This document shows, one piece after another, positions 933-63,187 of a stretch of DNA of 64,000 nucleotides. Position 1 is the stretch's first letter, and every line of letters starts with the position of its first letter. A program made the position numbers and the translations under genes. Below the pieces are notes generated by a model, which was given only the letters and a program-made list of their open reading frames with translations, was not told where the DNA came from and made no database searches. This stretch comes from Bolinopsis microptera (taxonomy: Eukaryota; Ctenophora; Tentaculata; Lobata; Bolinopsidae). The stretch covers positions 16,073,669-16,137,668 of the forward strand of contig NC_087072.1 of NCBI RefSeq assembly GCF_026151205.1, read 5' to 3'.

Positions 933-1101
933 GTATAATACAATAATATTTTTATCGGGCGAAATTGAAAGCCCCGACACAGCCGTTGCTCTAACCAGAG
1001 CCCTATCGCTTGCAGTATAGCGCGCAACCGCGACCGTCACGCAGTACGCCTATACACATGGCTATGTGAAATACAGCCGCGCACTCGTGCGCGGCGGGTC
1101 T
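470..1101. repeat. Duplicated unit with ATGGCTATGTGAAATAC core
   Basis: Two diverged copies of one unit lie at about 470-625 and 980-1090. Shared blocks, in order, are CCAAAGCCCT/CCAGAGCCCT, CGCTTGCAGTATA, GTCACGCAGTACGC and ATGGCTATGTGAAATAC. One copy is inside the TTAA element and one outside, so two repeat families are interleaved here. No coding capacity was seen. Confidence 0.6.
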
Positions 1102-3710: not shown

Positions 3711-3767
3711 TCAGCCATTGCATTAGTTAGATAGATTTTCTTTCATATCAACTGCCCTTATTATTAT

Positions 3768-5062: not shown

Positions 5063-6787
5063 TCCTTGATATGCGAAGAAGCTGTTGCAGCTAATACCTT
5101 TCGTGTTGCCCACGGGGACATGAAGAATAATTATGTACAGAAAGCAAAATTAATGATAAAAGCTCAGTTCATAATTGCATTGATCACAATTGAATTAACT
5201 AAAAATTCGGATCAGCGGAAGGGACCCTTACTGGTCATTGTAAATACAAGTTACAACTACCTGTAACATTAATGTGTCAGATCAATCGGACGAATTTGGC
5301 ATTTGCATTTCCGAGGACTATCATAATATTGTAGATGTTACAAAACATTTGAACTACTTCTGGACAGGGAAAATGAAACTTCCACCAATTGTCAAACCTA
5401 TTTTACACAGATTTTCCGTTCACAACCCCCTACAAGTAAGTAAGTAAGTAAGTAAGTACAAAGAAGGTGTAATATTCTTATTGACCAAAATGTGTCTTCC
5501 AAATCTATGGATTGGTAAAATTACATAATGGTGGCATACAGTTTTTTTAAATCTTGGGAAAAGACTTTGAGGGTGTGAAAGTTACTCTGATATATCATGT
5601 ATTTTTGGACACTGATTTGGAATCACCGCATGACGTAGGATAAAAATACCTCCCTGAGGAATAATTGGCAAAGAATTGTTTTGGTCTAGTAAAACACAAA
5701 TCGGATTGTGTATGGTAAGGGTTGTGGTTAATGTTGTGGTGAGCCATATATTGTTGGCACAGTTCCCCTTAAGAGTATACCCTCTAGGCATATTGTTGGG
5801 AAATCTCTTAAAAAATAAACTGCATAAAAATAACATTATTCATTAATATGCATCTGAGTGCATCGGATGGAATGCCAGTTAAATTTGCATTTATAATCGG
5901 TAAAGCAATGGGACATTTTACACAGCTTAAGTAACTTTAAAGTGTGGTCTGGCACACAAGTCACTAACAGGCTGGTAATATTTCTGGTGGATTCACTGAA
6001 ATTGAAGGAGAGTAAGAAAGGGCATTGAAATTAACCCTTCATCTTAGTTCAATGCCATAGGAGCTGTTCCATTAAAAATTTGTTGATTGCATTTTTCTCG
6101 GAGACAAAAAAATTGTTGCAAATTTGGGTTTCATCTTGTTATATATTTTATTGTAACTTTGAGTTTAATTTGAGCATAATTTGTCGTTGTGTTATCAATT
6201 AATCGTTGATTAAAATTTTTGATGGATTGATTTTAAATTTTTTAGTATTATTCTTTACAATGCTTCAAGATACAGGTTAGAGATGCTAGAAACTAAATCC
6301 CTAATCTGAAGTTTTAAGCAAATAGTCAGTTTTAATTCCCTTATTGTCCAAATCTTTTCCCTCTATGGACAGTAAGATACTGTTATGCCAATTCTAGGTA
6401 CTCCATGATTAAACATGAAGTTGTTATATAGCATTTCATTTTTGAGGAAACCGTATCTATTACTCAATAATTAATTTTTTTAAATGTTCGGCTCAGGTCA
6501 ACCCCCACACTTCAAATAGTGATTAAGATTCAATAAGACATGTTCCGTTGATGACTAGCCTAAGATTAATCCATTGTTTATTCTAGGTTAAGATATGGCA
6601 ATAACTGAGGTACACAGGATTTCTCCACTTATACTATTAATATTATGTGAGTAATAAAATAATTTTCGATTATTGTTAAACCAATTTACTGACATTATTT
6701 GACGACTATCTTTTCGTGAAATCAGAACATTTTTGCAACACGTACATTTTACTTTGAATATTGATATTGAATTGATCTTTTCCACAG
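5063..6787. other. Unassigned region upstream of the first recognised receptor exon
   Basis: It contains a (GTAA)n microsatellite at about 5435-5459. ORFs of 97 aa (4973-5266, +) and 84 aa (5582-5836, -) show no recognisable domain. The missing 5' exon(s) of the PLXDC-like gene could lie here, but I found no convincing signal-peptide exon. Confidence 0.4.
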
Positions 6788-23916
<17,129 letters not shown>

Positions 23917-40338: not shown

Positions 40339-41186
40339 CTAGTTTGTCTTCTCTTTGATCGGTTTCCTCTTCTCCCTGACACGAAGCCACATGAATAAGA
40401 CAGAGAAGGCGAGGAAGCCAGCCGACAGTAGCAATATCGCTACAAAGTCTGGGAACCACACGTCATTCTGAGGGGTAGCAAGTTATTAACTAGTAGTTTT
40501 AACTCTTTTTAAAGGAGAGGGGTAGCTAAGGGGATTTTTAAATCCGTGCCTCTATTCCCCGAGAGTTTCCACGCCAACTGGCGGGAGCTCTAAACACACT
40601 TCGCGCCTCGTTGTGTGAATCCGGTGACTAGTGGCGGGAGCTCTAAACACACTGTGCCTTTTGACCCACGCCATGTGGCCCGTCGCACATGGCGTAGTGT
40701 GGGCAGGAAATCCGTGCCTCTGAATAGAGGCGCGGATTTGCTAAATCCACGCCAAGTGGCACAGTGTGTTTAGGTTAATCGGGTCATGTGGCCCGTCGCC
40801 ACATGGCGTAGTGTGGGCAGACGGGGGGGGGGGGCAATGACTACCAATGGAGACTTTTGGGGACTAATGGGGACTAAAAATCATGGGGACTAGAGGTCAA
40901 CTCGTTGACGTAATTCACCATTTGTCCCCATAAGTCCCCAGAATTTTTGACAGTTATTTATGGTTTTCAAGTTAGTTTAATAACGATACGATCGAGATGT
41001 TTTGTCCAAGATAAGAGTAGGATAAATCTAAATGGGGACTAATGGAGACTTTTGGGGACTAATGGGGACTAAAAATCATCTAAATGGGGACTAATGGAGA
41101 CTTTTGGGGACTAATGGGGACTAAAAATCATGGGGACTCTGGGTAAAATCGTTGACGTAATTCCCCAAGTCCCCAAAAGTAGTCAT

Positions 41187-41222
<36 letters not shown>

Positions 41223-44200
41223 GCAGACCCTTACTATTATGTATATAGTACTTGTCAGTATTGTGGGTGGTGTTGTATACTGTTTAGACGGCATTATCTC
41301 TAAACCCACATAATCTAATCCCTTTTTTGAGGAGAGTTCTGGAGAGGAAGACGTTGCAAACAAGAAATATATTTAACATTATGCGTAACATGTGTAAAGG
41401 TGTAAGATGTTTGCCATATTTCGTACAAATTGTGTTTCCTGTTGCTGATTGATCAAATACTCACTGCATCGAGATGGTAATAGCTGAGAACTTGGTTGCC
41501 GTCCTTGAATACACATAGACTCTCTGGAACTTTGTCACACTCTGCCAGAAAATAATTATCAAAGTTTCAAAGGTCAGCTAGTCGTGTAGCTTTACCTAAG
41601 TAAAGTAAGTGTGGTTGTTCTGTTCGAATGTGAACGTTACATTTAAATAAAGGTCTGACATATGAAGTTAAATTGCAGCAACTACATCATTATACAGTTA
41701 AAAAACACATTTAGTTGATGAAACAAATGTGGAATAAATAACTAACTGATTTCAGCGTCCTCAAACTCGCTAATAAGGACCATTCCAAAGGCGTACTTGA
41801 ACCAAGATCCATACTTTATAGGGTAGAAGTAGTACGGGGTAGACCTGATGAGAAACATGTAATACAGTAGACAAGAAGGTACATTAGTAGGTACCATCTC
41901 AAAAACAGGTCTTAATAAAATTCCTGTTCTTACTTCTTAGTTATAACTACAACCAGCTTAAAACTAAAAGTCAGATACTAATTAACCTAATTACTAACGC
42001 TTCATTTTGATAGAGTCCGCCAAACAAGAAGAAAGGCAGGATAATGAGAGGCGACAAAGCAGCTGATATGACGGGACTACCAGAGGCAGTTCCAACAAAG
42101 TACCCCACAGCTGTTGAGACTACAGACACTGCTAGACATGCTGCGTAGCATGTGAAGAATGCCACTACATTTCTTCTTAGTCCTGGTATGTGTGATCAGG
42201 GCTTAGTCGGGGGTTTGGGTGGTATTTATACATTCCAAACTGAACTCTCTACACCTAAATATTATGATAAAGATTAAACACTTATTTTCTAGGGTTCGAT
42301 AAAACACGTTATTTGTATAAAGTTAAGTTGGTACCTGCCATGAGCCAGGTAATGACCCACTGTATAAGTGTCAGGACTATTAGATAGGGCATCTGAAATA
42401 ATGGTTCATCGTTAATTGGAAAACGAACAGTCTTATAATATCTGAACCTATGGGAACTATAACATCATTAGGGGGGGGGGGGGGGGGGGGGGGGTCATAT
42501 ATAACCTTGTTCTTCTGGAGATTATAATCTGAAGAAAGAGTTTCACCTCTAAAGTAAAGCGAGGTATGAGAGCCCCCATAATTCCGTACATTCCATTTCT
42601 GTACTCCCGTTTTATAATCGGTAAGTCTTCTGGTATTGTCTGCGGAGAATGAATAGTTTTACCTTATATTGATGATTAATATATTATGTTATGATAATAA
42701 CTCAACACAACTGACAACTCAATAATTAACATGTCAGTGACTACAAAAGTAACCTAGACGAAACAGGAATTTACCGATCCTTGAAGGAAGACGTTGGAGA
42801 ATGTGATGGAAGTAATGAGGAAGAAGAGAAGTCCACTCTTATCTTGAACGGACTCTTGTCCATTACCCGTGTTGAAGTAGGCTAATCCACCCAGTAAAGA
42901 TATCACCTGAGAAGGTTATCGACCTTTTAGTTTGAGTCATTTTTTAATGTATACAGAGTACTTGCAATGTGGGCCACGATATCAGGCATATTTTTTAACA
43001 TTTGCTGATTAACCGATTAACTGATTAAAATTACAGATAAATATTATGATAAATATTCAGTTATTACTAAATACTAATGTTACTTACAAGGGCTTGAACT
43101 AATCTAATTTTGGTATAGCCAGGATTTCTGGTTACATTCTTCCAGGATCTGCCAAAGTTAGCCGACATTTGTGTAGAGAATATGCTCCTGGATCTAAGAA
43201 ATTAGAGGAGTTAATTATTAGAGAATTAGTTTGTGATTTGTGTCCCATAATTCAGCAAAACTATCAACAAGGGAATAAGTGATCGGGCATAATTTAATGA
43301 TGCAACCAGGAGGATATGTTTGATTCCTAGTCCTATGTAGGGTATGTAAGGGGTCGTTCACATATTACGTAATCACTTTTTGAACAATTTTTACCCCCCC
43401 CCCCCCCCCCTGCGTAATCAGTTTTACACAGCTATTGTGTCAAAATTACACTAGCGTAATCATTTGAAACCCCCCCCCCCCCCCCCCCTCGGCTGATTAC
43501 GTAATATGTGAACGACCCCTAATAAGCATAAATCAGATTACATTCCTGTGTATTTTCTGAGACTTTTTCCCAATCCAATAGCTTATTGAGTATCAGGTGA
43601 TCAAGACGTATGATCGATTGATTGTGTTAACAAATACTGATTTACACTCTGTTGACTGTTCAGATAAACAATTATTCTCAACACTCACCCTTCCAAATTA
43701 GTCTTAACATCTGATTCATTCTGTGCCTCTTTCTCCACAACCGCGATGTTTTTCTTCAATGTGGCAAGCTCTTCCGATTTAGCGAACACACCCGTAACTT
43801 CCTGCAATTTTAAGTTCATGAAATTATGTTGGATTATAATCGATAGGGTTGATTTACAGTTTATTTTTATTCATTAAAAAAAGATACAGCGAGTTATTTA
43901 TAATGTTTATGTCTAATGTCTATTATGACTAACAAAACAGTTAGAATTTTAACTTAAACTTACGTCGACTCTTTTTCTGCATTCTTCTTCCTCTCCAGGG
44001 ACAATGGCCAAAGTGAAGATATAGTGATCAGCCGGATTGTAGTTATCTGGACAGGGGTAGTTGACGGACTTGAAAAACTTGAGAGCGTCAGCACTGTCCC
44101 CCGTAAACGCGCATTTCCCCTCAGCAACCAGGTACAGCCTGTAATAATAAGAATATGAATTTTGTGTTGGATCATTTTTATTGGGATACACTTACAGCTG

Positions 44201-47200
44201 TTGAACGGCCATGAGAGAACCTAATTTTTTCAACCGTCTTCAAATTTGACTCCAATTATGGGATCATGACAAATGACTCAACGGCGTAATACCTTCTGGT
44301 TAATTTCTAATATTTTTATGCGTCATTCAATTAGACTGCGGAAAAAATTGTTCAGAATAAACCGTTTACACTCGGAAGAAAAAAAATTACAGTATTTCAT
44401 GGTCGGTTAATCTAAAATACTACATGTTTTGCCAGTCAACAAACATCTTGTCCGAGTGATACTGGACTTGGAAGAGAAGGCTGGAACAGTTTTACCTCAT
44501 CCATAGCCTGTCATGAGACACACCGTCACACTTCTCGCAAGAGTGACAGTTAATCCTTGACAGTCTTCCTGCCTTACAACTGATAATCCACCTGTCTCAA
44601 ACACCAGGAGCAAGGCACGTGGTCAGGTGTTTAGTCACGTGATACAGCTCTTATCTCCTCATTGGACAGCAGATATTGGAGTAAAAGCAGAGAGATTGTA
44701 GACAAGCTTTCATTTCTCGTTTGACGATGACGCTTCAACTGCAGTTTCAGTTTTACAATAAACTTAAAAACACCGCAGCTGATAAGGAGGTAGGTTCTGT
44801 TTTTTACCCAGTTTCTAATTTCTCTTTAGGATATCAAGGCTTTTAAATGCAAACTGTCAAAGACACTGTTTCCTTCAACGTTTTTACTTTGATGTAGGAA
44901 CTTTATTTATTACCACAGATTTTCATATAATGTTTGGAGAATTGAACTTGTGGTCGGATGATAATATTTATATGACATTTGACATTATCGACAGGTATTG
45001 GAAGTAATCACAGGTTACAAGGTACAATCATGGATAGACAAGGATCCTCTGCAGATAGTCGACCTAGTCAAGGTAAGTTTTAGAATATATCCGTCATTAC
45101 ACCAATAATTGTAGAAAAGAGTAACATTTTGAATTGAAATTTGTTTCACATTTTACATAATACAGTGCAGCGAGAATTGATATTTGAGCACAGTTTATGA
45201 TTATGGAATGATTAACGAATGTTTAGCGATCATATCTTCATAGAAACCGGGGAGGGGAGACCAGGACGCGCAAGACAAGACCATGCTGAACGAGATTATC
45301 AACCATCTGTCTTTCTCAACTTCTTTCCGTGGGTGGATGTCCTTCCCTGACTACGGCACCTCAGCTCTCTACTATACCCCATGTCTAGAGGTCGAACTTA
45401 GAGGTGAGTCACATTGAGTTAACAAGATACAACTATTTAAGTATTTAACTATAAACTAAGGGTTGTGTTTTGCTCTGCTGGCACATTAGATATTTAGTTT
45501 TTAACACTCCGTCATTTCATTCGTTACTACAAAGTACACTTTAGCTCGTTAAATTTAAAATGCACTTTCGTACAATTACAGGGGGGGGGGGGGGGTCCGA
45601 AAGTCAGTGTGCAAACGTTGGGTCTTATACCTCCACCGTGTTTTATATTTGAGAGTTGTTGCTTTGCATTTGGCATACTGTACCTACTTGTTCGATGATT
45701 CCGTTACAAAAATTTGAATATTTTAGACCACGCCCATTCAATATGAAAACACCTATATTGTTCTGGTGACAAATTCCTCGAACCAGTGGTGGTAGTTAGT
45801 CATACCAGAAAGAATTATTTCAATTGGACAGTCAGTGACTGAGCTATTAAGGTTAACGTTTGTACACTAACTTTCGGCCCACCCCTCCCCCCCCCCCCCC
45901 CCACCCCTGTATATAAATATGTTGCGGAAAAAGTAGTGGCCATTTTCAAAGGTATGTCAACTTCTGCTCCAAACGGCCTTCCTAGTTGAAGTTTTTGGGA
46001 GCAATGTGGGAAACCTCCCTCCCCAATCCCCATGATGACATTTACATTTAGTTGAACGTATAATTAACAATTCCGAACACTAAAAAGGTTCACTATTCAG
46101 GGGTGGAATTTTGTTCGATGATCACTCCCTTTGAGATCTACCCACACTTTGATACACTAAGCTCTGAGGATTGTAAGATATTGGCTGTGTTCGAACATGA
46201 CATACAGAGGATAATGATCTACATCTGCAAGGAAGGCTCCGTGTGGAACAGGATCTACCTTCACTATGATGATCTGGAGAATCACGTCGTTCAGCAGGTA
46301 TGTTATTTCTTAGTCCCTGTTTCCCTTTCTTCTATTTTATGTTTTTCTAATTTCTGTTTTATTTAATCTCGATGAGATTAACATTTAATTAATAGCAATT
46401 AAACGAGCTGGACGCTGGTAGTGGTAAGAGATCGTAGGCTTATATAGGGTTAGCTGATGAACAATGAACAATGAACATTCGATATTTTCGTCCAAACTGC
46501 GATAGTTTAACAAGTACAACTCAGCTTATTTTACCTATCACGCATAATATTATAATTAGTAGATGTTGGTAAAGCAGGAATCTTAATTATTTCTTATTTA
46601 ATTTTATGACCTAGATAACTGAAAAAGACACTACCCGTCTGGTACTTTGTCTGAAGTGCTGCCCCTCATTCTGGCAGTCACTACCCGAGGTATGCATCTC
46701 AATTCTCATTTATTTTCTGGTACAATTTACTCACATGCCTATAATTTAACTGTAGTGAAAAAGATATCACAATAATTCAGCACGGACTCAGTAATGATTC
46801 ATCGAGTCGATGATTTAATATTCGATAGAAGTATTTAGCTTTTTATGATTATAATTTGTGAACCATTCTCGACAGACGGTTGCCCAAAAAAGAAAGAAGC
46901 TCTCCCGAGACCACTGTGCCGGCGATCAGCTGGAAAAGAAACTGCGTCTAAAGACCCCCTGGACAAGAATAAGGACCCTGACTGATGATGAGGAAAAGTG
47001 CGACATTCCAAAGTGCTCCACCCTCGTGTTGACATACCCAACAAACGGCTCAACACTCAGCAGGATCGTGTCCGGGTTCAAGAAGCACAAGTACCAGTGT
47101 TACTTCACCAAGTTTGATGATCTGAGGTACCCGGAGAACGGTATGAGGGGGAATGGAAAGTGCTGGATCGAACGGCTGATGGAGAGCAACCCACTGCACC

Positions 47201-50200
47201 TTGACAATATAAACTTGAGATATTCTCTAAAATGTCTGGAATCTCTGGGCTTCCAGTTTTTGGACAAGCTTCACAAGACCTCTACAGAACATAAGAATTC
47301 ATTCTTTAGATTCCTTCAGCAAAAGATAAAGGAAAACGATGTTGAAAGAATTGACTTGGTCACCCAGACCATTTTCAAGCTGGTGCAGGCTTTTGACAAA
47401 GACCCATTCTTGGACCCAGCAACTGTCTTCCAACTGTACTTTGACAAGGTTGACGTGAAGCCGTTCAACGTAGAGTCCCATTACCAATTTATCAAGAGGA
47501 TAGTAGTTACGCCGTCTAGAACCATCTTTGTGCCACCAGAGCCCATCGCTATAAACAGAATTCTTCGTCAGCACATAATGTACGTGGAGAATTTTGCTAG
47601 GGTCTGCTTCAGAGACGAAGACTTCTCTCAGTTCAACGTACATTCGGAGCAAGCGACATACAACGTTCGGAAAGTTATAGATGAGGGAATCAGGATCTCG
47701 GATGACATCGTGTTCCAGTTCTTAGCGTGCTCCAACTCCCAACTAAGATCGCAAGGACTCTGGTTGTTTTACCCACAGTGTCCCATCACAGTTGAGTCCA
47801 TCAGGGATAGCATTGGAGAGTTGAACAAGATGAAGACAACCCAAAAGTACGTGACTAGGATGGGGCTCGCTTTCACAGCAACTGACTTCTCCTTGTCTGA
47901 AGAAGTTGAAATCCAGGAGATTCCAGAAAAAGAGAGGATAGTTGGGAACAAAAGGTTTATCTTTAGTGATGGAGTAGGCTGTATCTCACCAGGAGTAAGG
48001 GACCTTATCGTGAAGGAGAAGTATGGGTATCAAGCTGACTATAAGCCAATAGCATTCCAAGTGCGGGTCGGAGGATGCAAGGGTATGGTTGCTGTAAACC
48101 CAGATCTAGATGGCCTACTACTTCAAATCCGTCCCAGCATGAAGAAGTTTGAGTCTACTCACAAGCAGATAGAGCCATGTGGGTACTCGGGGCCCAGAGA
48201 GTTGTACATGAACAGACAGGTAATAGCTATCTTACGGGCACAGGGGGTCCCAGACAACAACTTTATCTCCCTGCAAAACAAAAGTCTCATAGAGATAGCA
48301 GACATGTTGACTAAAGAACCACTTGCCTGCCACGAAATGGGATCAATGCTGAGGGTCAGGGTGTCTAATCTTGAGAGAAGTTCCATCAGAATAACAACAG
48401 AGCCATTCCTGCGAAGACAGCTTGTTTCTCTCTACAAGTTTAAGGTTCGAGATGCACTAAACAAGACTCGCTTTAGGATCGACATTGACAAAGGCAGACA
48501 AATGAAGGGAATCATGGACGAGACAAACACTCTCAACTATGGAGAAGTGTTTGTTCAGTACACCGAACTCAACGGGACTAACTTGAAAAGAATCCTTATA
48601 GGCGACCTGTTTGTCACTAAAAATCCATGTCTCCATCCAGGTGACCTAAAACGAGTCCGGGCCGTTGACGTTCCAGAGCTTAGGCATCTGTATGATGTTG
48701 TGGTGTTCCCTTCAAAAGGACAAAGGCCCATACCTAACGAACTATCAGGTTCAGATCTTGATGGTGATGAATATTTCGTATGTTGGGAGCAAATGCTGAT
48801 GCCAAAGAAAGATTGCGAGGCTGCTGAGTACTATGTTGAGAAATTAGATCCGATAAAAGACTCCTCAACCGAGCCACCGCCGGAGTTCGCCGATGCTCAA
48901 ATTAATGACTTTGTCTTCAACTACATAACCAAGGGTTCCAAATTGGGTCAGATCAGCAACGCCCATGCTATCTGGGCCGATCGACTAGAAAAGGGTGTCC
49001 TCTCCAAACAATGTGTTTCTCTAGCTGAAAAACACAGCGATGCAGTTGACTTCATAAAAACTGGCATAGCACCAGTCTTCGACTTTTCCGAGAGAAGCTT
49101 GATCTACCCAGACTGGATGATGAAGCCAGACAAAGCCGCTTATAGCAGTAAAACTGCAACAGGGAAGATGTTCCATATTGTACAGGGTTTGGAGCACTCG
49201 GTCCTAGATCTGAATATTCCTGAAGAAAACATCGCCCCGGACGAAATATTCCTACTGGATGAAGGTCCAACGGATGAGGAACTAGAGAGTGCTACCAAAC
49301 TTTACACAACGTATTGTACGGAGTTATCCAACATCATGGTGGCCTACGGAATTGCAGATGAAGGAGATATTGCTGCTGGCTGTTTGAACTCCATAAAGAG
49401 AAGCCTCGCTAAGGAGCATGAACGGAACTATGATATGCGGGAACAGTGCCTGTCCATGTTTAGATCCCTCCAAAGGAAGTACAGAAGAACGTTCTTTTCA
49501 AACCTTGGTGTATCTCAAGAGAACTGGAGACAGGAAGAAGAGAAGGTGCTGAGACAAGCTGCAGCCTGGTACTTTGTCACTTATCACAAACCACAACCAT
49601 ACCAAGATCTCATCCTGCTTAGCTTCCCCTGGTGCGTGGCTAACATTCTCATCAGGATTCCAGAGCTCATGAACACGTCAACAATACCTAACTCGATAAG
49701 AGACAAGCTGAGGGCAGAGCTGAGAGAATGGTACGGTGTCAAGTTGAGGAAAGGAGCTGAGTTCAAAGATCGAGGTAAAGAAGTCCTGAAGCTTTTGAAT
49801 AGTCCTGAGATGGTCAGTGTGACAGATATTAGCCGATACACCTATGGACTGATTATTGGAGAAGCCTTTATTTATTATGTGAACGAATCTCCAAAAGATT
49901 TTGCTCTTGAACTAAAGAGCTGGCTAGCGAAGCAAAGTTTCGACGCAGACGTTTCGGGTGAACTGAAAGACTTAGCGACAGACTTCCAAAAATCGAGCGA
50001 AAATTGGGCTGTCTCAGAAATCTGCGTGAACGATAAGATGATGAAAGTTATTGTCACAAATGATAAACTCTTGCTGAGAAAGGTGAAGATCTTAAAACAG
50101 TACTGCCAAAAGTACAAAATTCTGGGTCACACCATGTTTTTAATCTTAAACTGGGCTGAAAAGAACAACATAACCACTAACGCGGGTCTGGAGGCAGATA

Positions 50201-53200
50201 TTGGGATAAGCTTCCTGGAATTCATGTTAAGGAAACAAGATGGCCAGATCTATGAGATGTCCGAAGAGTCCTACCTCCTTGATGATGTGATAATCGGTCA
50301 GTATCCCCTCAAGAACACAGCCACGTTGTACCTGGAGTATCTGAAGTACATAATAGGAGACTGCAAGATGGAAGGAGAAGATGACATCCTAGGGACTGAT
50401 CTACTGGAGATTGCTCGTACACTACTCGGAACTGAAAAGTGTATGATCGCACTGATGAGAGAGTATCATTTCGTTTCCTACGCTCTCAAGTTCGAGTCTA
50501 ATGAGAGCTACAAGCAGAACAATATCATCAGGAAAAAAGATAAGAAGATGTGCTTCAACATTGCTCGAGCTACTTCCTTCTGTTCGAGCTTCTTTAACGA
50601 TCCCGACATCACTGAAACCTTCGAGACGGGCCAAAAGATCGAGATAAAGATCAGAGAGACGGAACTGGGATCTATTAACGCTCTGGTGTTGGAAATTTGG
50701 GGTGACAATCCCCAGAAGATGAACGAAATTGCCGATGCTTTTGAAATCGACGAAGATAGATTTCAATTATTTGGCAACTATTTGTTCATCCGTCAAAAGA
50801 ATTTCAATCAATTCAATTTCCTTGCTCCAAAGACGATCGACAAGCCGCTTAAAAAGTATTTCTCCCTCCGGAAGCACGAGTCAAAGCCTCGGGAGAAAAA
50901 TCCACTGAAACACGATATAGATCCGATGTATTACAATAACGATAATAACAATAGAGACGAGAGTTTGAAGGAGCTGGTCTACAGGGAGATTCTCCGAAAG
51001 ACCCGTCTGATGAGAGATGGGCTCTACAACCAGATTTCTCACGGGAAACTGACCATCAACACCACTTTCGGAAAGCTGAAAATCAAACGGTGTGAAAATG
51101 GTAGTCTGGACAAAGAATACATGTCTTTGTTCCTAGACACCAAAGGAAACATCTTAAAGAAACTTAGAGGAGTCACCAAAGCTACTCCAAAGGTAACGAC
51201 AAGTTACGTGTTTAATGTGATATACGAGGGTATTTCCTACAAAGTACATTTCGACAAATTCCACAAACTGAAGTCGCTATCTTTGACTGACATCGTATGG
51301 ACAGACATGATGATCCTGCATGACCGGGGAGTAGATATGAACATCATGATGACATCAACCCACTCGCTGAAAGGGGAGCGTTTGAACCATCTACCCTTAA
51401 CATACGAGCTTTTTAGAGGCACTAAGAAGTGGATTGATCGGGTAGACAATGGGAAAGGGATCCAACTAATAGATAGGAACGAAATACCTTGCTTCATTTC
51501 CTCCATAGAAGTGATTACAGAGAAACAGTACAAGTTCTGGAAGGATCCTGCTCTGGCCGATATGACAGTTTCTGAGCTGACAGTCGAGGTGTATCAGGGA
51601 TTGGAAAAAGGTTTCGTAAGGCACTCCAGGACTTATTTTGAGCTTAGACTCTCAGCGACTATAGACACCCTCTTAAACACAGAGTTCTTGAAGACATATG
51701 AGAATGTGGCGCTGGATATAGCCACTGTGGATATGAATACACGAACACCTAGAAGAAGTGGGAGTTGGAGAGCCGCGACCTCTGACCCAGACTCAGTTCC
51801 AATTCTTCCACGCAGACCCAACAAAAGTGGTCCTCGCCAGACTACTGAAGACAGTGCACCTACCATTACCAACATCTACCCCTCACAGTTTCCCGGAATA
51901 GCCGAGGAAAATTCAGTTGCGAGTCGTAGTAATGTGAGTACCGGTGCTCCATCATTGACCAGGTCTGGTGACTTACCACCTTCAACTAGTAACAGTGTCA
52001 GTAGACTAGCAAGACAAGTTAGGATGAGAGCCATGGCAACCAGTGGAGATCACGACGAGTTTGAGCAACTCACTCCTCAACAGTTGGAAAGTAAAGACGG
52101 ACTTACAACAGAAGATTACATATTTCAAGTTGAACAGCCACCGGTTTTTCACCCCATCCCAGGTCCGAACTCCAGCTTTACCAACTACACAGATTTGCAA
52201 ATCGGAAATGATATTTCTTATCATCATCCTCTTAGTTATCCTACTGTTATTGGAACGCATGATCCATCCGGTGATGAACTAAGTCTTAGCTTGGATCCTA
52301 CAACTGTTCAGGGAATAGGAGCTGGATATCAACTATCTTCACAGGAATCCAATGAAGCACCGGAGCTTGAGGATCTGGATCAGTTTGACATGACCTTCTT
52401 GGACCCCACACAGCTGCTCCCAACACACGAGATAACAGAACCAAAATCTCCGTCTCCACACAGCAACGCTTCCTCTGGTCCCGACATTATTCTGGTGGAA
52501 CAAACCTTTACGGAGTGTCCAGGATCAGGTGTTTCTGGTAACCCCTTTGAGGAGGAAGTTCATGATGAACCTAACGTCAGCGATTATGAAGACAGGAAAT
52601 TCTTGGATTAGCTCCTCTAACTGCCCTTATACTCCTTAGGTAAGCTTCTTAGGTTATTAAAGTTATGTCAGGTGAAATTAGCCCTTGATCGAACCTGAGT
52701 GGTCAGAGATCAATTCAAGTGTATATTAGAATTCAAATTAAAAATGGAAGAACGTTCAGTTTTCAATCTGACAATATTATATACACGATTGAAATTCTTG
52801 AACTGGCTTCGATTAGCTGAAATCTTTATAAATAGCTGATTTGCGAGTCATGCTAGGGTTACCATATAGTTCGGAAAATATATAAGTTTTAAGAACGACA
52901 CTCTTTCAGGTGAAAGGAGGTTCCTGACGTTTTGAAGCACCTACCCATTTTGAAGCGGAACTGTGTTTTGTTATTTTAGATTTTTTTCAACAATATTGAC
53001 ACTTGAAAATGCATTTAAAAGCATGAGCATATCTTTATTTGATCAGTTTTTTAGATGAAAGGTTTTACACATACCAAGTTTTAAGTTGAAAATAGTTTGT
53101 ACAGATTTGATGCAGTATGTTTTGAGCGAATCATAGATTTGTTGAACTTAAAATCTTCCAGTTGGATTGAATGATTGAATATTTAAGCTAATATCGTTTT

Positions 53201-56200
53201 TGATAAATGTTAATTTCGTTATGAATAAATGAACTTATTGCTTAATAGTCATTTGTCCAAGATACAATATTTTTAGTTTATTAGACGATGCTAAAAGTTG
53301 TTGGAAAACTAAAATAAACTCACTGATCAAACATAGCAAAGACTTCAGAGGTAGGCTGATGTATCGTACAGAGCACAGTTCTGTTTGCTTTAGCTAACTT
53401 TCCAATAATTTTAACAATATTCCTTGCCATGAATGAGTCCAGACCTGAAATAAAACTATTAAATATATGAGACTATGATACATTGTATCAGGATAATGTG
53501 GTACTCTCCTTGTGTATAAGAATAACAGAGTAAGCAGCATGTAAATCATTACCGCTGGTAGGCTCATCAATGAAGAGGAGTGGAGGGTTCATGAGGAGTT
53601 CACAAGCAACTGACAGTCTCTTTTTCTCTCCGCCAGAAATACCACGAATCATACCACCAGGCTGCCCACAGAGGCTGTTCTCTATTTTCTTCAACCCCAA
53701 CTAGAAACGAGAGAAAGTTAATACAAATCTGAACAGATTTGACAGGCAATGCATGGTCAAAATGTCCATCACATATATTTTAACTCTTATTACAACAGCG
53801 TAAGAAAAATTGAAGTTAATCATTGCCATGATAACCATTTGATATCGTATTTAGATCGCACGATTAAATCGATCGACGCGAATCGAATCTTGATGCATTG
53901 CGCCATGTCATGCATCCTGAGCTGGATACGCTACATATTATATGCATGAGCGCGATGCATGCAATCATAAATCAAGAGGCTTGCATATATTGAACATATT
54001 GACACGGGTGCAGAGTTGAGTCTGTACGGAACCTAGTAGTTTCAGATCCTTGTTTAACTTGCCGTACAGCAAGGTCATCCACTACTTTAGCCCGGCGAGG
54101 CACATAACTCCCTCTACAACTCCATGACAAATGTTTCATATATACTAGCCGAATTCACAATGCCATGTGCGCGCGCCGCGCCATGCGCTGCTGCATGCGC
54201 TGCATCGATTTAAAACAACCGCGCGTCAAAGAATTAAATTAAGGCCATCGCGCGCTGCAGAATCTAGATCAAGAAACCGGTCACGTACTGTCCCTAGAGG
54301 GTAAAATTAAAATACCGCATCAATTACCACCAGCCGACTCAGAATACGAACGTCGTTCTACAGCTGAGGTTGTGCCTTGCATAGAATTCAGAATGTAATC
54401 CACTTTTAGTTTCTACCATTGAACCCCTCCAGGAGTATCAAGCGCTAAATTGCCGGCCAACACCGTCTTTAAAAAATCTATGATGCTGTTGCAATTTGGA
54501 CCAAAATTTGTAAGCTTTTGAACAAAAAATTTAAAGAATGGACTTTTTCGGCTCTTTGCCACCGCTGTTCTTGACTGACTCCAGTGCTCAAATCACAATG
54601 AATGTAGACTGCCGGTGAAGAATGAAGATTATGTGTATCGTGTAAATTATACCATTTAACTCAATTAAACCCCACAATCTACTTCCAAGCTTTTTAAAGG
54701 CTGAAATCAGGAAGGATTATACCGACTTTTGTGCGGAAATTCTATTTTCAAGTTTTTCGTGGAGGAATTTTGCGTAAATTCTGGACGAATGCCGAGCACA
54801 GTCATTAGTCGTTACACTTAACAATATTCCATGTGACTAGCAGAGTGATTATATTTCATCATCGAAGTGTAGTTTCAGTGTCTAACTTCACCAAATCACA
54901 CAAACCTCGTGTAAAACTTTGTTTACTTTTCTCTTTTTCTCCTTCATTTCAACATCTCGCCCCATTCTGAGATTCGCCTGAAATGTTAAACATATGTATA
55001 AATGTGACATATTAAATATTAATAATCAATTCTGGGTATGTGTCGTGTCTAGGCATTTGTAACTCATATTTCGTAGCCGTAGAGTAACCATAAAAAGTAA
55101 ACTACAAAACACAAAAATTGTTTGATAGGCTTGCTGAATATTACATTAATTTAATTTGGAAATATTATGACTAGGAATTAGATTTTTAAATTCCTCACTT
55201 TAAGCCACTGGGATGTAGGGACACACACTATTATTATTAAAGCAAGCTTCTAGTTTCGGGATAGCCTGTAGCAGGCAACGCTCGATACTAATGATTCTAC
55301 AGACCTACACAAGTGCAAGTAAGTAGGTAAATATTTCATGCTAGGCATGTGGCACCCATTACGGACACGCAGACTAAAATTAATGGAAATAATTACCGGA
55401 CTTTATTTTTCACGGACCTTAAAGGACCAGTTAACTGAAAAATTTGTAGTCTCCAATTTGGCTAAGATTTAAATCAGCTGTGACAAACTGGTAAAGAATC
55501 GTATCGCCGAAAGAACCAACTCTCTAGCGTACGTGTAACGCGTGTTATTGCAATAATAAGCTGTGGCCTCGTGACGTCACGAAGTCCCTCAGTGCGCGCT
55601 GACATAGCGTAATACGTTGCAAATGTTTATCGTTGTCATTAAAACACGTGTTACTCACTCAAATTTTAGAATTATGACTATTACCCGAGTTCTCCAAAAT
55701 CCTTATAGTTTTGGCTATCATCCTAACTAAAGGAATAGCTGATTGGATGTACAGTGCTCACGTCATGATTTTAAACAGTGATATAGGTTCTTGGACAGAG
55801 GCGGTTGAATGTACGGTTAGAAAGTTTCTGCTATTACAGTTCTTATGTCATATGTGATAATTTTGGATTGTTTTCATTGCTTAATTACACAAGCAGGGAG
55901 ACTGTACCGATTATTTTTCCCCAGTCCATGAAACTCTAACGAATTTAAAAGGATCTAGATAAGTAGGAGATAGTTTGTTCAATTCCGAGAGCAATTATAT
56001 TTATAGCATAGCGAAATTTCTAACTTTAATCTGCATGTGTCAGCCAGTACAGGAGACAAGAAGTCTGGCTACTTTACGGCCGTTCCTCTGGGACCATTAG
56101 TAGAAGTAGCTTCTATCAGAACAGTGCCGTGGGAACAGAATTCCCGCCAAAATACCCGGTCTACCAAATAGTAATAGTGATTGGAGTGTACGGTGTGCGG

Positions 56201-58342
56201 TGTGTTACAGTTTTGAATTATACTTCGGCTTACCTAGCTGTTATCCTAATTGCATTATCATCGGTACATAACATAAATAAACTACTGGTAAGTTTAAATA
56301 CCAAGTGCAAACGTGTTCAGTCAATCGACCCACTGAACAAATATAGAATTTCCAAGATCCTATTATTCTTTGGCCATATATTAATACGGCACGATCGATT
56401 GTTAGATGGTTAAACGACTATACAATTCTAAAACTATGAGCTAGCACTTTAATCTAAAAATACACTTTTTATATTACTCCTGATTTTTACATTTCACGTA
56501 AAACATTGTCGCCACAGGTTGATCATGGACACTAACAGCTTAATTTGAGATAAATGACTATGAGTTTCTCTAAAGTTAACTCTAAAGTTGTGTAATCCAG
56601 TCATTTATGGACATTTATGGAAATGAACCTGCAAATGTTCAGATACTCACGAAACTTTGCACAGACCTTCCCGAAGGTATGAATAAACGATTTTCGTTTG
56701 GAGACATTTGTTTGACAGTGGAGAAAACCCAGGAGGACCACGCCCATATTGACCCAATAACGTAACCGACCCCTTGCTTCTGAAGGTCGTAGATACTTCA
56801 AAATAGGCTTAAACGAAGCCACATATGCATGTTTATATAGGAGTTATCGAGCAACACATGGCCTAAAATCCTTACTTTTCGAGAAATTCGCCAAAAACCA
56901 TTTTGGGCGTGGTGCTGAGCCCATTTTCGATAGGATCGTGATAGAGTCTTTAGACACTAGACAGGGTGCAAAAGAACCGCAATTAGCATATTAATATATG
57001 ACTTACGAACAAACATATGCCTTAAAGTGCTTACTTTTTCAGTTATTGGCGAAAAACTGATTTTCGGTTCCAGAAATCATGCAAAACTATGGGTATCTGG
57101 TAAATTGGGCTATGAAGGTTTTTGAATGTGTGCAAATTGTGCAGAATGGCCATGTTTATATACAACTTATGAAGCAACATGTACCCTAAATTACTTACTT
57201 TTCGAGTTATTCGGGGAAAAACATTGTATTATGTCCATTTTCTACCTGTAAAATACATTCTCACGAGCTCCTCTGCGCGCGCAAGGGACTTCGTGACGTC
57301 ATCGCCAAAATAATACAAACGCTATTTACACGCGTTAGAGAGCAGTTAGAGATTTAGGAATTTCGACTCGTTGCTTAGTTTGCTATTAATCACAATCTGT
57401 CAAAATATGAGTATAACTTTTTTTTCAGTTAACTGGTCCTTTAATGCCACAGAAATTATTTTCACGGACATAATTATTCACGCTAAGGTCTTCAGCGTGA
57501 AAGTAATGTTCGTGATAATTATGTCCGATAAGGTAAGCTACACATTGTTTTCTTTGCTAACATTAAAATTAAAAGATACGTGAAACACACAAATCATATC
57601 CACTTGTATTGATAGTACAAGGAAATACACAAATCATGTTTATTGTTGTATACACTGTACACTATACCTAGCTGTTCAAAGAGGAACACATTCCATTTCC
57701 GTGCATATATCCTTAAAGTGAAAATGAAATAAAAGCGTATTTCAAGAGGAATATATCATAGGGATTATAATAAGAAAACAACCTTATCGTAGTTACAATA
57801 AAGAGAGTGGTGTACCAATGTAAACTCACGTGAAACATTAAGACCTCTTTGACTGTTAGAGTTCCAATAAAGAAATCCTCCTGTTGGACGTACGCAGAGA
57901 GAAGGGATGTTGTGCGGCCCGTCAGTGGCTTTCCGTTCACTAGAATCGTACCTGAAAATTGTATATTATTCATCTTATTTTTTGATGTATTTAACGTACT
58001 TGGTGATAGTTACCAATTCAAAACTTATTTTAAAGCCTAAATCCGGAATTAAGATAACAGAAATGAGCAGTAAAACTGGTAACCATCACCATATTCAAAA
58101 TTTTACTAGTGAACGAGAGTAAGCAAGCAGTTTACGTGCTACATTGTCGCAACATTTGTGAACTGCTGTCTGTAACCTTGGTTATTATGCTTGTAAGTTA
58201 GAATATCTGGAGGTTTGATATTCAAATGCCTGGCCTGCCTGCCGTCTCATTTGGTGTAATTAACCGGCTATTTAAAACATTTCTAGGATTAAAGACCAGA
58301 CCTAAGTACTGTCTAATACCCTGTAATCCTGTAGTACCCACT

Positions 58343-58380
<38 letters not shown>

Positions 58381-59947
58381 TTTAGTAACACAGTCACGTA
58401 GGCAGGATTATCTGGCTATGTGGGTAGCTGTAGTAACACTGTTAGATATAATAGTGGTCAGTGGACCGCATCTAATACTCGAATTACAGTGTCTACGTAT
58501 ATACATATATATACATAATACATTAGTTAGCCTCAACAGTCAATGAAATACAACAATTGTCTTGAATCCCAACTTCTCTGATTTAACTTTGCAGACATTA
58601 AATATCCTAGTCACATTCGGCTCTTAACCTCGAGACAATTTCCTCTAGTCCATTTCAAGCTCTCTAAATTTGACACAAGTGAGCACTGAACCATACGTCA
58701 GTTAAGCACTACCCAGATCTAAAGAATGACGACATCAAAGAAATCTTGAAATATCATTAACATCTACCTGATTCATCAAGCTTGTGGTCGTTCTTCATAG
58801 CTAATGTGTTGAGGAGAGTCGTCTTGCCTGCACCACTGTGTGTTGCAATATTACTTAGAATTATGCCCAAATAGGTGACATAAAGGTCAATCGTTCATGA
58901 AATTACGATTAACAGAAAAAAGAGGTTTCAAGAGTATAATAAGTAACTAGTAACTACATAATATATAATATTATCACTATACATTAGTCCGTAAATTTAT
59001 TATTCGGGCCAAAGAAACATATTTATAACAGTCAATAATTTTAATAACCATAATCTCCCCCCCCCCCCCCCCCCCCCCCCCCCCCATAATATTACCGACT
59101 AAGGTAGTTAGTAGTTTCTAATTAAGTAATGTAAAGGGTGTCTCACCTTGCCCCCATGATTGCCATGAATGTTCCGGGCTTGCATAAACCAGAAACTGAA
59201 ATTATATTAAGTCATGTTTACTTTTCAACTTCAGGAAAAACATATATAACCCGTTGTCATGGTGACTAAAAGTTACAGGATTCAACACAATGGGCTAATC
59301 ATGGCTTTAAAGCTGCGCATATTGAATAATATTCAATATATATTAAGACGCAATGAAACTATCGGACTACGATGTATGGGGACTGCCACCCCATTACATT
59401 CTGTTATATACCTCCTTTAAGAATTTCTTTTTTAGTAATAGTGTCCTTGTTGGAGCGACAACAGGCAGGACCCTTCCCTGTGTCCACAGATAGAGACACT
59501 TTCACGTCCTCCCATGACAGAGTCACTTTGGAGTATGCACCAAATCTGTTAGTCTCATCATCTAACTGCAAATTGGAGTATTTTAATAAAACATTCAATC
59601 AAAAACAATTTGATTAAAGCAAATAGTAAATTAGAGTGCTTTTAGTTGGGAGGAAATGTTACAAATGAAGCATGCAATTAGATTGTGATCTAGAATCATC
59701 AATAATTTCTTGGCAAGCTTAAGATAAAGTATCATAAAGTTGAACTCTAAAGTTGAACTCTAAAGTTGAACTCTAAAGTTGAACTCTAAAGTTGAACTCT
59801 TTCACTTACTGCACTAAAATCAAGACTGTCACTGGATGTAACTGTTGCGTCAGGTACGTTACCACTGTTGGGGTCCACATCTTCCAAACTGAGACTGTTG
59901 TTAGCAGGTAAAACAATTACAGCAGCAGATTCGTCTTCATAACTCAT
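40339..59947 (-). CDS. ABCG-family half-transporter (White/ABCG1-like), 18 exons
   Basis: Exons, all phase-compatible: 59810-59947 (ATG), 59412-59565, 59147-59195, 58768-58835, 57830-57951, 54906-54977, 53553-53700, 53324-53444, 43964-44138, 43689-43801, 43088-43193, 42775-42906, 42547-42639, 42335-42392, 41999-42182, 41747-41844, 41465-41541, 40339-40467 (TAG). The spliced frame is 2037 nt, 678 aa, a normal half-transporter length. The ATPase domain precedes the membrane domain (ABCG order): Walker A GASGAGKT (112-119), Q-loop YVQQED (157-162), signature ISGGEKKR (222-229), Walker B LLFIDE (242-247), H-loop H279. Six hydrophobic segments follow from about residue 414, with a two-cysteine extracellular loop (CDKVPESLC) before the last helix and a short basic tail. 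All catalytic residues are present. It should work as a homo- or heterodimer exporting lipids or other hydrophobic substrates; substrate unknown. The intron between exons 8 and 9 contains an entire RdRP gene on the other strand. Confidence 0.95.
40530..40814. repeat. GC-rich foldback repeat in the last ABCG intron
   Basis: It carries paired direct copies (CATGTGGCCCGTCGC...GCGTAGTGTGGGCAG near 40671 and 40786) and inverted copies (CTAAACACACTGTGCC against GGCACAGTGTGTTTAG). A hairpin joins AAATCCGTGCCTCT and AGAGGCGCGGATTT near 40709-40741. It is much more GC-rich than its surroundings. Origin unknown. Confidence 0.6.
40823..41220. mobile_element. hAT-like MITE with 8-bp target duplication
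   Basis: GGGCAGAC occurs at 40815-40822 and 41221-41228 as an exact 8-bp direct repeat. The element ends are inverted: a G-run then GGCAATGACTAC on the left, GTAGTCATTGCC then a 33-base C-run on the right. Inside, TGGAGACTTTTGGGGACTAA recurs three times. An 8-bp duplication is characteristic of hAT transposons. It lies in the last ABCG intron. Confidence 0.8.
43350..43519. mobile_element. PIF/Harbinger-like MITE (GGGGTCGTTCACATATTACG family)
   Basis: Terminal GGGGTCGTTCACATATTACG and CGTAATATGTGAACGACCCC are perfect inverted repeats flanked by TAA on both sides. Two internal poly(C) runs are present. It lies in the ABCG intron between exons 10 and 11. Confidence 0.85.
44727..52611 (+). CDS. 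Eukaryotic RNA-dependent RNA polymerase (RNA-silencing type)
   Basis: Six exons with consistent phases: 44727-44789 (ATG), 44995-45072, 45244-45403, 46101-46297, 46615-46689 and a 5.7-kb last exon 46876-52611 (TAG). They encode about 2102 aa. Cellular RdRP landmarks are the DGVG-type block FSDGVG (554-559), [20 protein letters not shown], and the catalytic motif DLDGD (818-822, in [15 protein letters not shown]). This family (RDR, QDE-1, EGO-1/RRF-1) copies RNA to make dsRNA or secondary siRNAs; all three catalytic Asp are intact. After the polymerase region, about 900 residues follow: a charged middle part, then a Ser/Pro-rich, acidic, probably disordered tail from about residue 1800. This is longer than the roughly 1600-residue nematode members. 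The intron-poor final exon contrasts with the small 5' exons. The gene lies wholly inside an intron of the opposite-strand ABCG gene. Confidence 0.95.
53224..53229 (+). other. Candidate poly(A) signal of the RdRP gene
   Basis: AATAAA lies about 613 bp after the RdRP stop codon and about 95 bp before ABCG exon 8 on the opposite strand. No closer canonical signal was noticed. Confidence 0.35.
53870..54290. other. Locally GC-rich, CG- and GCGC-containing insert in ABCG intron
   Basis: Dense GCGC/ATGC motifs (GCGCGCGCCGCGCCATGCGC, CATCGCGCGCTGCAG) stand out in AT-rich intron DNA. I found no inverted ends and no ORF. It could be an old repeat of unknown type. Confidence 0.35.
55419..57446. mobile_element. 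~2-kb TTAA-flanked TIR element in ABCG intron
   Basis: TTAA-AGGACCAGTTAACTG at the left is mirrored by CAGTTAACTGGTCCT-TTAA at the right. Inverted similarity continues inward: GTGACGTCACGAAGTCCCT near 55572 against AGGGACTTCGTGACGTCA near 57284. The interior has three degenerate ~160-175-bp repeats starting near 56818, 56990 and 57146 (TTACTTTTCGAG core). The ORFs inside (56129-56413 +, 56601-56822 -) do not resemble a transposase, so it looks non-autonomous. TTAA targeting suggests a piggyBac-type source. Confidence 0.8.
57457..57533. mobile_element. Short foldback element, copy 2
   Basis: Nested inverted repeats CGGACATAATTATTCACG / CGTGATAATTATGTCCG with an inner CACGCT/AGCGTG stem, nearly identical to 35469-35551. 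It sits 10 bp beyond the right end of the 2-kb TTAA element. Confidence 0.7.
58346..58380. repeat. Poly(C) tract, ~35 bp
   Basis: A C homopolymer in an ABCG intron. Another of about 38 bp lies at 59056-59093, and further C/G runs of 15-33 bp are scattered through the window. Confidence 0.95.
59738..59800. repeat. (AAGTTGAACTCTA)n 13-bp repeat, five copies
   Basis: Five nearly identical 13-bp units lie immediately inside ABCG intron 1, ending about 4 bp from the GTAAGT donor at 59804-59809. Confidence 0.9.
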
Positions 59948-60221
59948 ACCTCATGGATAATGGATATAGTATTTTGTTCAATAATGCCACAAGTACATAT
60001 TTTGAAATTCCAAAGTTCACAAAAGCATATATTTCACCTTTTACATAAAAGATACCAAAAACATACACATTTCCAGGTACAAAAGTTAAAGTTATTTATA
60101 ACAAATAATGGAGCTTACTAAAACCAAAAAATTCAGTGTGAATTTAAATGGCATACAAAGAATACAAGTTTACCCATTGATAATTAAGAGCGTCAGACTT
60201 AGAACCTTTTTTTAAATGCAA

Positions 60222-60491
60222 CTACAGATGCTGGAAGCCCTCCCTATCACTGCAGGCAATTAATAATTTAGTAAGAGCTGTTATAAAGCTGTCATCTCCT
60301 GTTAACGACTTAAGCAGATTAGGATGATGGCCATCTGAGACAGTGCTTTTAAAATTATTAGGCTTTAATTGTTCCTTTTTAACATTATCAAACATAACAG
60401 CAATATCATATATACAATTGGTATCCTCAATATTTCTATCAGATACGGGTCGGAGTGGCTCACGGACAAACAGAACTAAAAGCACTTGCAA
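60222..60491 (-). mobile_element. Decayed LINE reverse-transcriptase fragment
   Basis: The 89-aa ORF resembles the start of the LINE RT domain, where families read roughly LKPNKSPGPDGI...LLK. Here it is EQLKPNNFKSTVSDGHHPNLLKS as a degraded version, followed by a helix-like ALTKLLIACSD. There is no catalytic motif. It lies just 5' of the ABCG start codon. Confidence 0.5.
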
Positions 60492-60640
60492 GTACCTCTA
60501 AGATAAGATAAGATTTAAAATTATGCCTCTCTGGGTATCTCATATACAAATATAATTACTTCAAAACTGTACAATTTACGTTTAATAAACTATTAAAATA
60601 TAAAAATTAAAAGAAGTAACTGAAAACTCTTGCTGTAAGG

Positions 60641-60740
60641 NNNNNNNNNNNNNNNNNNNNNNNNNNNNNNNNNNNNNNNNNNNNNNNNNNNNNNNNNNNN
60701 NNNNNNNNNNNNNNNNNNNNNNNNNNNNNNNNNNNNNNNN
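60641..60740. other. Assembly gap (100 N)
   Basis: Exactly 100 N bases, the usual placeholder for a scaffold join of unknown size. Confidence 0.99.
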
Positions 60741-61509
60741 TTTTCTTTTTTTTGATAATATTTTATTTTTTTTCAAAGTTTAATAATAATTTTGGGTTTT
60801 TAAAAAAGGGATTTAAAAAAATTGGGGAAAAAATTTTAAAAAGTTTCCCAAAAAAAGCCCCTTTATTTTCCCTTGCTTTTTTTATGTATTCTTTTTTTAT
60901 TTGTTTTTTCCCCCCCCTTTTAAAAATTTTTTAAAAATAAAATTTTTTATTTTTTTCCTGCTAAAGGGGCTCGCTTTTTTGGGGCAAAAGTTGTCATCTT
61001 TTTTGGGTAATTTTTTTTTGTCGGGAAGCGTGTTTAAAAATTTTTTTGAAATTTTTTCAATTTATTTTTTTATCGTTTTTTTTAATTTTTTTCCGTGCCC
61101 CTCCCCCCCATGATCAAAAAATTTACCTTTTTAAAAAATAATCAATTTTTTTTCGATTTAATTTTTTGGGGTTTTTTTTTTTTTTTTAAAAAAAAGTTTT
61201 TTTTGGATGTTTATTTTTTTACTAAACTCATTTTTTTACACCCCTTTATCTTGATTCTTGTTTCTTTTTACTTTTTTGGGGAAAAACTATATTTCTCCTT
61301 TTTTTTTTTTTGTTTTTTAAGTTTCTAATGTTTTAGAGGGGTTTTTTTCAAAAAGACTAAAAATCGTTTCCAAAGAGCAAAATTTGAATAGTTCAAAAAC
61401 CCGGGAAAACCGAAGAAAAATATTAAAAGGTTATTAATTGGGGGGGGAAAACAAAACTCCCTGTTTAACCCCAGAAAAAAAAAATATTGTGTAATAATCT
61501 TTTCCCTCT

Positions 61510-61828
61510 TTTAACAGATCATGGACATGTTTTTTTGTACGAAAAAAAGGTGCAAAAAAAACCCGGGAAACTTGTTTTTCACCCCGGGGCCCGGTAGAGA
61601 AAAAGTCAACCCAACCTCCCAAGGTACAAAAGGGTGGAAGGGAACCCTGAAGGGGGTGGGAGTGAAAAAGGGTTTCCCGGGAAATGGACCCAGACCCCCC
61701 ATGACCGTACAAGTAAACCCAAATTTTGGTTGTTTGGGGGGCCTTTTTCTCAAAAAAATCCCCCAAAAAATTTTCCACCGGCCCCCTCCCGTAAAATTTC
61801 GGAACATTTGAAAAAAAAGGTGGTAAGT
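61510..61828 (+). pseudogene. Possible exon damaged by homopolymer errors
   Basis: A TTTAACAG acceptor precedes, and a GGTAAGT donor follows, a ~310-bp more GC-rich block. Different frames carry plausible peptide pieces (for example KPKFWLFGGPFSQK). Frame changes coincide with homopolymers, so sequencing error is likelier than a true pseudogene. Family not recognised. Confidence 0.25.
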
Positions 61829-63187
61829 ACCGGGATCAGTCTTTTTAAAAACTTCCATGGCGAAAAAAAAAAAAATTTTTTTGAAAAACCTTTCGGTTTT
61901 TTAAATGTGGGCAATCACAAATGTGGGATAATTTTTCCCAGTTTTTTTTGCCCGTTTTTTTAAATTTTTTGGGTAAGGTTTTGGGCCCAAAAATTTCCAA
62001 AAATCCCTAGTTTTTCCCCCGAGGAAGTGCTTTTTTAAAAAGAGCTTTTCAAAAAAGTTGGGGGCTCCCAACATTTCCAAGACATTCCCATGACCCGGGG
62101 TTTTATTTGCAAAAGTTTTAAAAATCGGTTTCCAACGTGGGGCCGTTTTTTGGTCACGTGGGTTGAGATTTTTTTTGTTAAAAAATTTGTCATGTAGGTT
62201 TCCCAATTTTACGCTTTAAAATATGTGCCCCAAAAAACTTCTGCAGAAAATATCGTTAAATTTTGCCAACTCCCAACTTGTATGATATTTTTTCAGTAAT
62301 CTTTTGGGGTTGCAATATCTAATATCCTTTTTTTTTTTTTTTTTTAAGTTTTTAAGAAATAAATTGCGCCCCAAAAACGCCCAAAAAAAATGTTTTCGCT
62401 AAAATATAGAAGAAGAAGAATTATTTTTAAGTTTTTTTATATTTGTTTTAGTTTTTTTTTATGGTTGCTGTGATTTTTGTTAAATTAATTGATGTTTTAA
62501 AGATTTTTTAAAAGCTTTTGGACTTTTTTTTAAAAGCTTTTAGTTTTTTCTAAAATTTTTATTTCCCGATTTAAATTTCCTAACTCATTGAAATTTCCAA
62601 AAATTTTATAACAAAAACTAATTACTTTTCGAAAAAAAAAAACCCTGAAAATTTTTTGGGGGACCCCCAAAGTATTCAAAAGCGGTCTATGAAATATGGT
62701 AAAAAAAATAATTTTTCCCCCAAATTTTTTATTAAATTTTGCACCACTATATATGAAATAAACACTAACTACCCGTAATTTCACAAAAACAAAAAGACTA
62801 TCTGGGGCGTATAGGTGGAGGGAAGAGGGGGACCAAAGGGGCTGTTTTTCTATTTATTTAGCAGAAGGGAAAGGGGGGGGCCCCCTTTCAAACAGGGGAT
62901 TTTGTCAAGGGGTAAAACAACGCTTACCCTTTTTCTTTGGATATCCAACCTGTGATAAGAACTCCTTGTGGGAAAGGTTAAAATTAATTTTTACTTTGGG
63001 TGGGGATATTTTTGGTAAAAATTATTCGTCCAGAAAAAAATAAAACGGGTAAATGATTAGTTACTTAAGGAAAAAATTTTATCCCCGTTTTTTTCCCATT
63101 AAGAATAAAATTTTGGGGAAATATATTTTTTTCACTGCTATTCAGCAAACGTGTTTGATTTTTTAAATAACATATCTTTCCCCTCAG

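Follow-up and report, generated by a model that had tools for sequence, protein, structure and literature searches.

Genes that lie within an intron of another gene and are read from the opposite strand are common in animals, and eukaryotic-type RNA-dependent RNA polymerases (RdRPs) are known there too; both ingredients of the locus considered here have thus been described. C. elegans holds the pair ceh-10/polq-1 and 566 other opposite-strand nested pairs, and in ceh-10/polq-1 the nested gene induces a short form of its host, as stated in the part of PMC12274878 available to us. Among simple nested pairs in human, 220 of 296 are opposite-strand in the accessible part of the source, and the available text of PMC8467205 describes inner genes as typically short and intronless. 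Eukaryotic RdRPs were found in 98 of 538 metazoan proteomes according to the portion of PMC6396948 at hand. The locus studied here lies in a 64-kb stretch of Bolinopsis microptera DNA (contig positions C1:16073669-16137668; the whole stretch is called the window and is numbered from its first letter) within a genome of 264.65 Mb in 232 contigs. It holds, very probably, an opposite-strand nested pair, in which the host is a complete ABCG half-transporter gene and one of its introns, an old one, is occupied by a complete and probably working RdRP gene.

An RdRP gene in intron 8 of an ABCG gene

The following features of the pair were defined:

40339..59947, minus strand: ABCG half-transporter gene, 18 coding exons, 678 amino acids (spliced frame, Pfam domains, colinear with ABCG1)
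53324..53444, minus strand: ABCG exon 8, ending in phase 2 (CA/)
43964..44138, minus strand: ABCG exon 9, starting with the G that completes codon CAG
44139..53323, minus strand: ABCG intron 8, 9185 bp, its position and phase common to three paralogs
44727..52611, plus strand: nested eukaryotic RdRP gene, 6 coding exons, 2102 amino acids
44727-44789, 44995-45072 and 45244-45403, plus strand: RdRP exons 1-3
46101-46297 and 46615-46689, plus strand: RdRP exons 4-5
46876..52611, plus strand: RdRP exon 6, 5736 bp, with the entire polymerase core and a long C-terminal part
47506..49176, plus strand: match to the Pfam RdRP domain PF05183 over profile positions 1-580 of 582 (residues 210-766, with 46879 as the start of the count)
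48754..48768, plus strand: DLDGD motif (residues 818-822), aligned with the DLDGD of 7w84
53224..53229, plus strand: AATAAA 3' of the RdRP stop, candidate poly(A) signal within the host intron (pattern only)
53313..53318, plus strand: second AATAAA (pattern only)
52656 and 52737, plus strand: two ATTAAA motifs upstream of the AATAAA motifs (pattern only)
45565..45918, no strand assigned: dispersed repeat in RdRP intron 3, found by genome search; its inverted ends are short and G-rich

In a preliminary description of this DNA the ABCG frame was said to leave exon 8 at 53324 and to resume in the same phase at 44138, with a complete RdRP gene on the other strand in between. Both gene models were built anew on the DNA itself: three frames were read around each exon that had been proposed, the splice sites were fixed and the exons were joined by script. 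The two ABCG exon ends proved exact to the base: exon 8 ends with ...TTT GAT CA/GTGAGT and exon 9 begins with TTACAG/G CTG TAC CTG, the split codon being CAG (Gln). All six RdRP exons (44727..52611, plus strand) fall within intron 44139..53323 of the minus-strand ABCG gene, and the completeness claimed for the RdRP gene was borne out by its six exons, five GT-AG introns out of five, 2102 amino acids and a PF05183 match covering positions 1-580 of 582. On the coding exons, the inner gene is found wholly within one intron and in opposite orientation, and by sequence the host is one gene across that intron.

The spliced ABCG frame of 2037 nucleotides has its sole stop at its end, and all 17 introns are GT-AG. 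Pfam places ABC_tran at residues 95-250 (1.7e-26) and ABC2_membrane at residues 394-605 (1.2e-35), so the ATPase domain is N-terminal to the ABC-2 membrane domain in one half-size protein of 678 amino acids. Among solved structures CDR1 (9iuk, two repeats) scores best; the second-ranked, ABCG1 (7r8c), aligns as a single stretch over residues 92-665 and is gapless over the exon 8/9 junction. A tblastn search of the window with the ABCG protein gave 15 matches that span residues 1-678, each part occurring once save for short overlaps at the ends; one extra match at 24119-24039 (E = 3.1) is at chance level. As judged from the DNA, exons 1-8 and 9-15 encode one protein, because a single codon is split between them and the alignments to ABCG1 and to an intron-free paralog are gapless, and paralogs in the same genome support this independently.

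RdRP exon 6 stays open for 1911 codons, an event with a chance probability of about 10^-50 at its base composition, and the PF05183 match scores 486.2 bits (cut-off 23.8, E = 2e-145). Eukaryotic RdRPs are defined by a DxDGD catalytic motif; the DLDGD of the nested protein is presumably this motif. Two solved RdRPs, 7w84 and 7roz (named RNA-dependent RNA polymerase 2), which we take to be plant proteins, align over residues 391-961, DLDGD included, and with exon 6 as the query the structure match extends to about residue 1120. The ~980 C-terminal residues (about 49660-52608) had no match to these structures and no Pfam match over the cut-off, DUF7752 being the sole Pfam match in the C-terminal part, below its cut-off. 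To the eye, the final few hundred residues have a high content of serine, threonine and proline and look disordered. A pattern scan of the contig collection with the RdRP core gave eight matches, none of which was confirmed, and no relative.

Searching the genome with DNA positions 46101-53323 returned one place only, the locus itself (1/1 candidates scored). With the whole intron as query (1653 candidates, 40 of them scored), at least 74 matches were obtained, namely the locus and 73 in the dispersed repeat at about 45565-45918; among the matches listed, dozens of copies of this repeat are 80-90% identical. No duplicate or haplotig of the intron region was found, 46101-53323 having a single place; the stretch 44139-45564 was covered by the whole-intron search alone.

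ABCG paralogs and the age of intron 8

Nine ABCG paralog stretches of the genome, the C10 stretch included, were fetched for a comparison of introns; three of them (L054, L057 and L058) were judged by tblastn pieces only. The closest paralog lies at C10:12629662-12631170. It is a single open frame, aligned to residues 16-523 with 51% identity, and is gapless and intron-free at the exon 8/9 junction; its remainder (residues 510-668) follows as a second piece. Each of the seven best-scoring matches runs through residue 291 in a frame free of stops. An intron is present in three of the nine stretches in the same codon and phase (FD, two bases, intron, one base), with lengths of 253, 413 and 1311 bp in the paralogs on C7 (L050), C12 (L052) and C1 at 4.12 Mb (L051), respectively. 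When the RdRP coding span is subtracted from intron 8, 588 + 712 = 1300 bp are left, which is within the range of these three introns.

Since three paralogs carry a short intron at the same place, the intron site is probably older than the nested arrangement; most likely the RdRP gene moved into an existing intron, rather than the host growing around it. We propose that the RdRP gene would be driven by a promoter of its own between 44139 and 44726, and that the ABCG pre-mRNA would be spliced across the RdRP gene, as the splice sites suggest. The two genes would be expressed largely independently, with at most transcriptional interference or co-activation as in other nested pairs.

Two pairs of neighbouring same-strand ABCG genes were also seen, at C4:14532819-14537021 and C1:14066741-14071042, each gene being one open frame over about residues 52-668.

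A second RdRP locus and Argonaute-type genes

An exon-by-exon search of the genome, from which a copy in very small exons might escape, revealed one other RdRP locus, C3:2485100-2495309 (L017-L019), which also encodes DLDGD (7/7 candidates scored). A tblastn comparison with the nested protein breaks this locus into 12 pieces, and for 11 of these the match lies within residues 455-1115, a region that is a single exon in the nested gene; two of the pieces hold inserts with stops. Identity to the nested RdRP ranges from 24 to 70% by piece, and the two proteins are distant. One open frame of 499 codons at the C3 locus aligns to residues 75-449 and continues uninterrupted where the nested gene has its introns after residues 100, 166 and 191; the nested-gene introns after residues 21 and 47 are outside the compared region. 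The C3 locus was compared as fragments, with exon ends examined for some of the pieces only, and it is apparently intron-rich.

Piwi/Argonaute-domain matches were found at nine separate places in the genome (19 matches, 17 of them over the cut-off), so Argonaute-type genes are present, not necessarily complete at each place. Two Piwi matches of nearly equal score, C13:15865886 and C13:15908618, are 43 kb apart.

Alternative explanations

At 9185 bp, intron 8 far exceeds the other 16 ABCG introns (108-2852 bp), as might be expected if the two ABCG halves were separate genes, fragments of two paralogs or the product of a misassembly join. We regard this as exceedingly unlikely: the split codon is completed exactly, the match to ABCG1 and to the C10 paralog is gapless at the junction, no ABCG segment is doubled or absent, the locus is free of Ns, the third-position GC of the two halves is similar (0.434 and 0.500, not far apart), and the intron without the RdRP coding span would be of paralog size. 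Two ABCG genes, or a broken one, were rejected on three grounds: the junction, the paralogs, and the fact that each part occurs once in the window. Some observations nevertheless weigh against the reading of an RdRP gene inserted into an old ABCG intron. Six of the nine paralog stretches lack an intron precisely at this site: the alignments of L054 and L057 continue across it, L053 goes on over it without a break, the alignments of L055 and L058 break slightly upstream of it, and L056 has a break nearby whose exact place was not fixed. One of the two CDR1 (9iuk) repeats has a one-residue insert beside the exon 8/9 junction, the other repeat having none, and both the synteny and the insertion step are deduced from paralogs within one genome. 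The gene may also have entered the intron through reverse transcription, either as a retrogene or with its 3' introns lost through complementary DNA (cDNA), a tentative possibility that we do not favour on balance. Intron loss mediated by cDNA leaves a 3'-biased pattern, and in the nested gene the core and the whole 3' part occupy one 5.7-kb exon, as against 11 separate C3 pieces over residues 455-1115, with all remaining introns within the first 191 codons. The single-exon core beside the fragmented C3 core fits cDNA-mediated intron loss in the nested copy, to which deep divergence of two RdRP groups is an alternative. However, five introns are left, three of them at places where the C3 frame is uninterrupted, so that later gain or loss at C3 is needed, and the large distance between the two proteins also speaks against a retrogene. 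A target-site duplication was not detected above chance, the longest shared words being 10 nucleotides, where 200 shuffles gave 9.6 on average and 13 at most, and no run of seven or more A, sought as a trace of poly(A), was found in 52612-53323. An old retroposition event would have lost both marks; a recent one with a target-site duplication is unsupported, the shared words being at shuffle level.

The nested arrangement could also have consequences for expression. Ordinary effects of nesting, such as polymerase collisions or an RdRP promoter that also fires a shortened ABCG transcript, are compatible with the nested-pair reading and have a precedent of the same topology in ceh-10/polq-1 (PMC12274878, in the part available); by analogy with that pair they may occur here, although we consider them rather doubtful. 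The preliminary description had gone further and envisaged a possible self-regulatory loop, in which the two RNAs could pair and feed the silencing pathway. In such a loop unspliced ABCG RNA would pair with the RdRP mRNA and be cut to small RNAs, and these, perhaps amplified by the RdRP, would tune RdRP expression. The antisense geometry extends across the whole RdRP coding region, the RdRP has the DLDGD motif, and Piwi/Argonaute domains are encoded at nine places, all of which would suit such a loop. The coding exons of the two genes, however, do not overlap, being separated by 588 and 712 bp; pairing therefore needs unspliced ABCG RNA, unless the RdRP 3' end enters exon 8. Unspliced nuclear RNA is normally short-lived. 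If used, the second AATAAA (53313) could bring the end of the RdRP transcript within ABCG exon 8 and create a short exon overlap. Geometry of the same kind is found in hundreds of nested pairs of other animals. In the portions of the sources available, amplification of small interfering RNAs (siRNAs) was not detected in lancelet (PMC6396948), nor were secondary siRNAs in Nematostella (PMC12768352), whereas an RdRP-dependent small-RNA pathway is reported in a tick (PMC10062562); these results can serve as priors only for this genome. Taken together, the loop appears very improbable, and the fuller idea that read-through ABCG pre-mRNA checks RdRP via small RNAs, and that selection for such a loop has preserved the nesting, is hardly credible. 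If the nesting were conserved between species and small RNAs from both strands were present, the locus would offer a natural test for regulation of an animal-type RdRP by its own silencing pathway.

Other elements in the window

Two elements with inverted ends lie in other introns of the ABCG gene. Positions 43349-43520, in intron 10, resemble a small miniature inverted-repeat transposable element with perfect 27-bp inverted ends (AGGGGTCGTTCACATATTACGTAATCA), and an element of about 2 kb at 55408-57455 with 35-bp inverted ends (86%) occupies most of intron 5. Pure runs of 15 to 37 G or C occur 11 times in the 64 kb (e.g. 58344-58380), which is many by impression, without a computed baseline. 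Self-comparison of the window suggests tandem arrays at 2716-3764 and 22064-22430.

The Ns of the window are confined to 60641-60740, outside the ABCG/RdRP locus; this gap of 100 N is 0.7 kb upstream of the ABCG start. Adjoining it, at about 60741-61500, is an odd T-rich stretch laden with homopolymers, perhaps a poor assembly end, and the GC content over 60001-62000 is 0.29. An Rfam search of the window gave no match at the gathering threshold, and ARAGORN with the bacterial code gave no tRNA. For neighbouring genes, 10 of 33 stop-to-stop open reading frames were scanned against Pfam and five of the 10 had weak matches, all under the cut-offs; one frame of 1-14998 gave nothing at E ≤ 0.001.

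Comparison with known systems

As a genome feature the locus would add to the known opposite-strand nested pairs, its inner gene being unusually long. The combination of an RdRP gene with an ABCG intron was not found in one narrow literature search, which does not show that it is absent from print. Gene prediction programs may break up the ABCG gene or omit one gene of the pair, and RNA-seq without strand information would mix the ABCG and RdRP signals.

The host resembles the ABCG half-transporters ABCG1, ABCG2 and ABCG5/8 in having its ATPase domain ahead of the ABC-2 membrane domain, and differs from them by a long intron with a guest gene, whereas three paralogs in the same genome have this intron short. 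The inner gene shares with the animal RdRPs of the eukaryotic type (PF05183; alpha, beta and gamma groups in the available part of PMC6396948) the whole domain and the DLDGD motif, and there is a second locus in the same genome; it departs from them in the ~980 residues beyond the structure-matched stretch that are without a Pfam match over the cut-off. The pair as a whole is similar to ceh-10 in polq-1 of C. elegans (PMC12274878) and to 2mit in tim2 of Drosophila (PMC3786989), both of which, as far as the accessible parts of these sources go, are opposite-strand genes in an intron of a multi-exon host. Unlike typical inner genes, which are described as short and intronless, the RdRP gene is long, with 7.9 kb, 2102 codons and five introns, and its product belongs to an enzyme family known to make double-stranded RNA.

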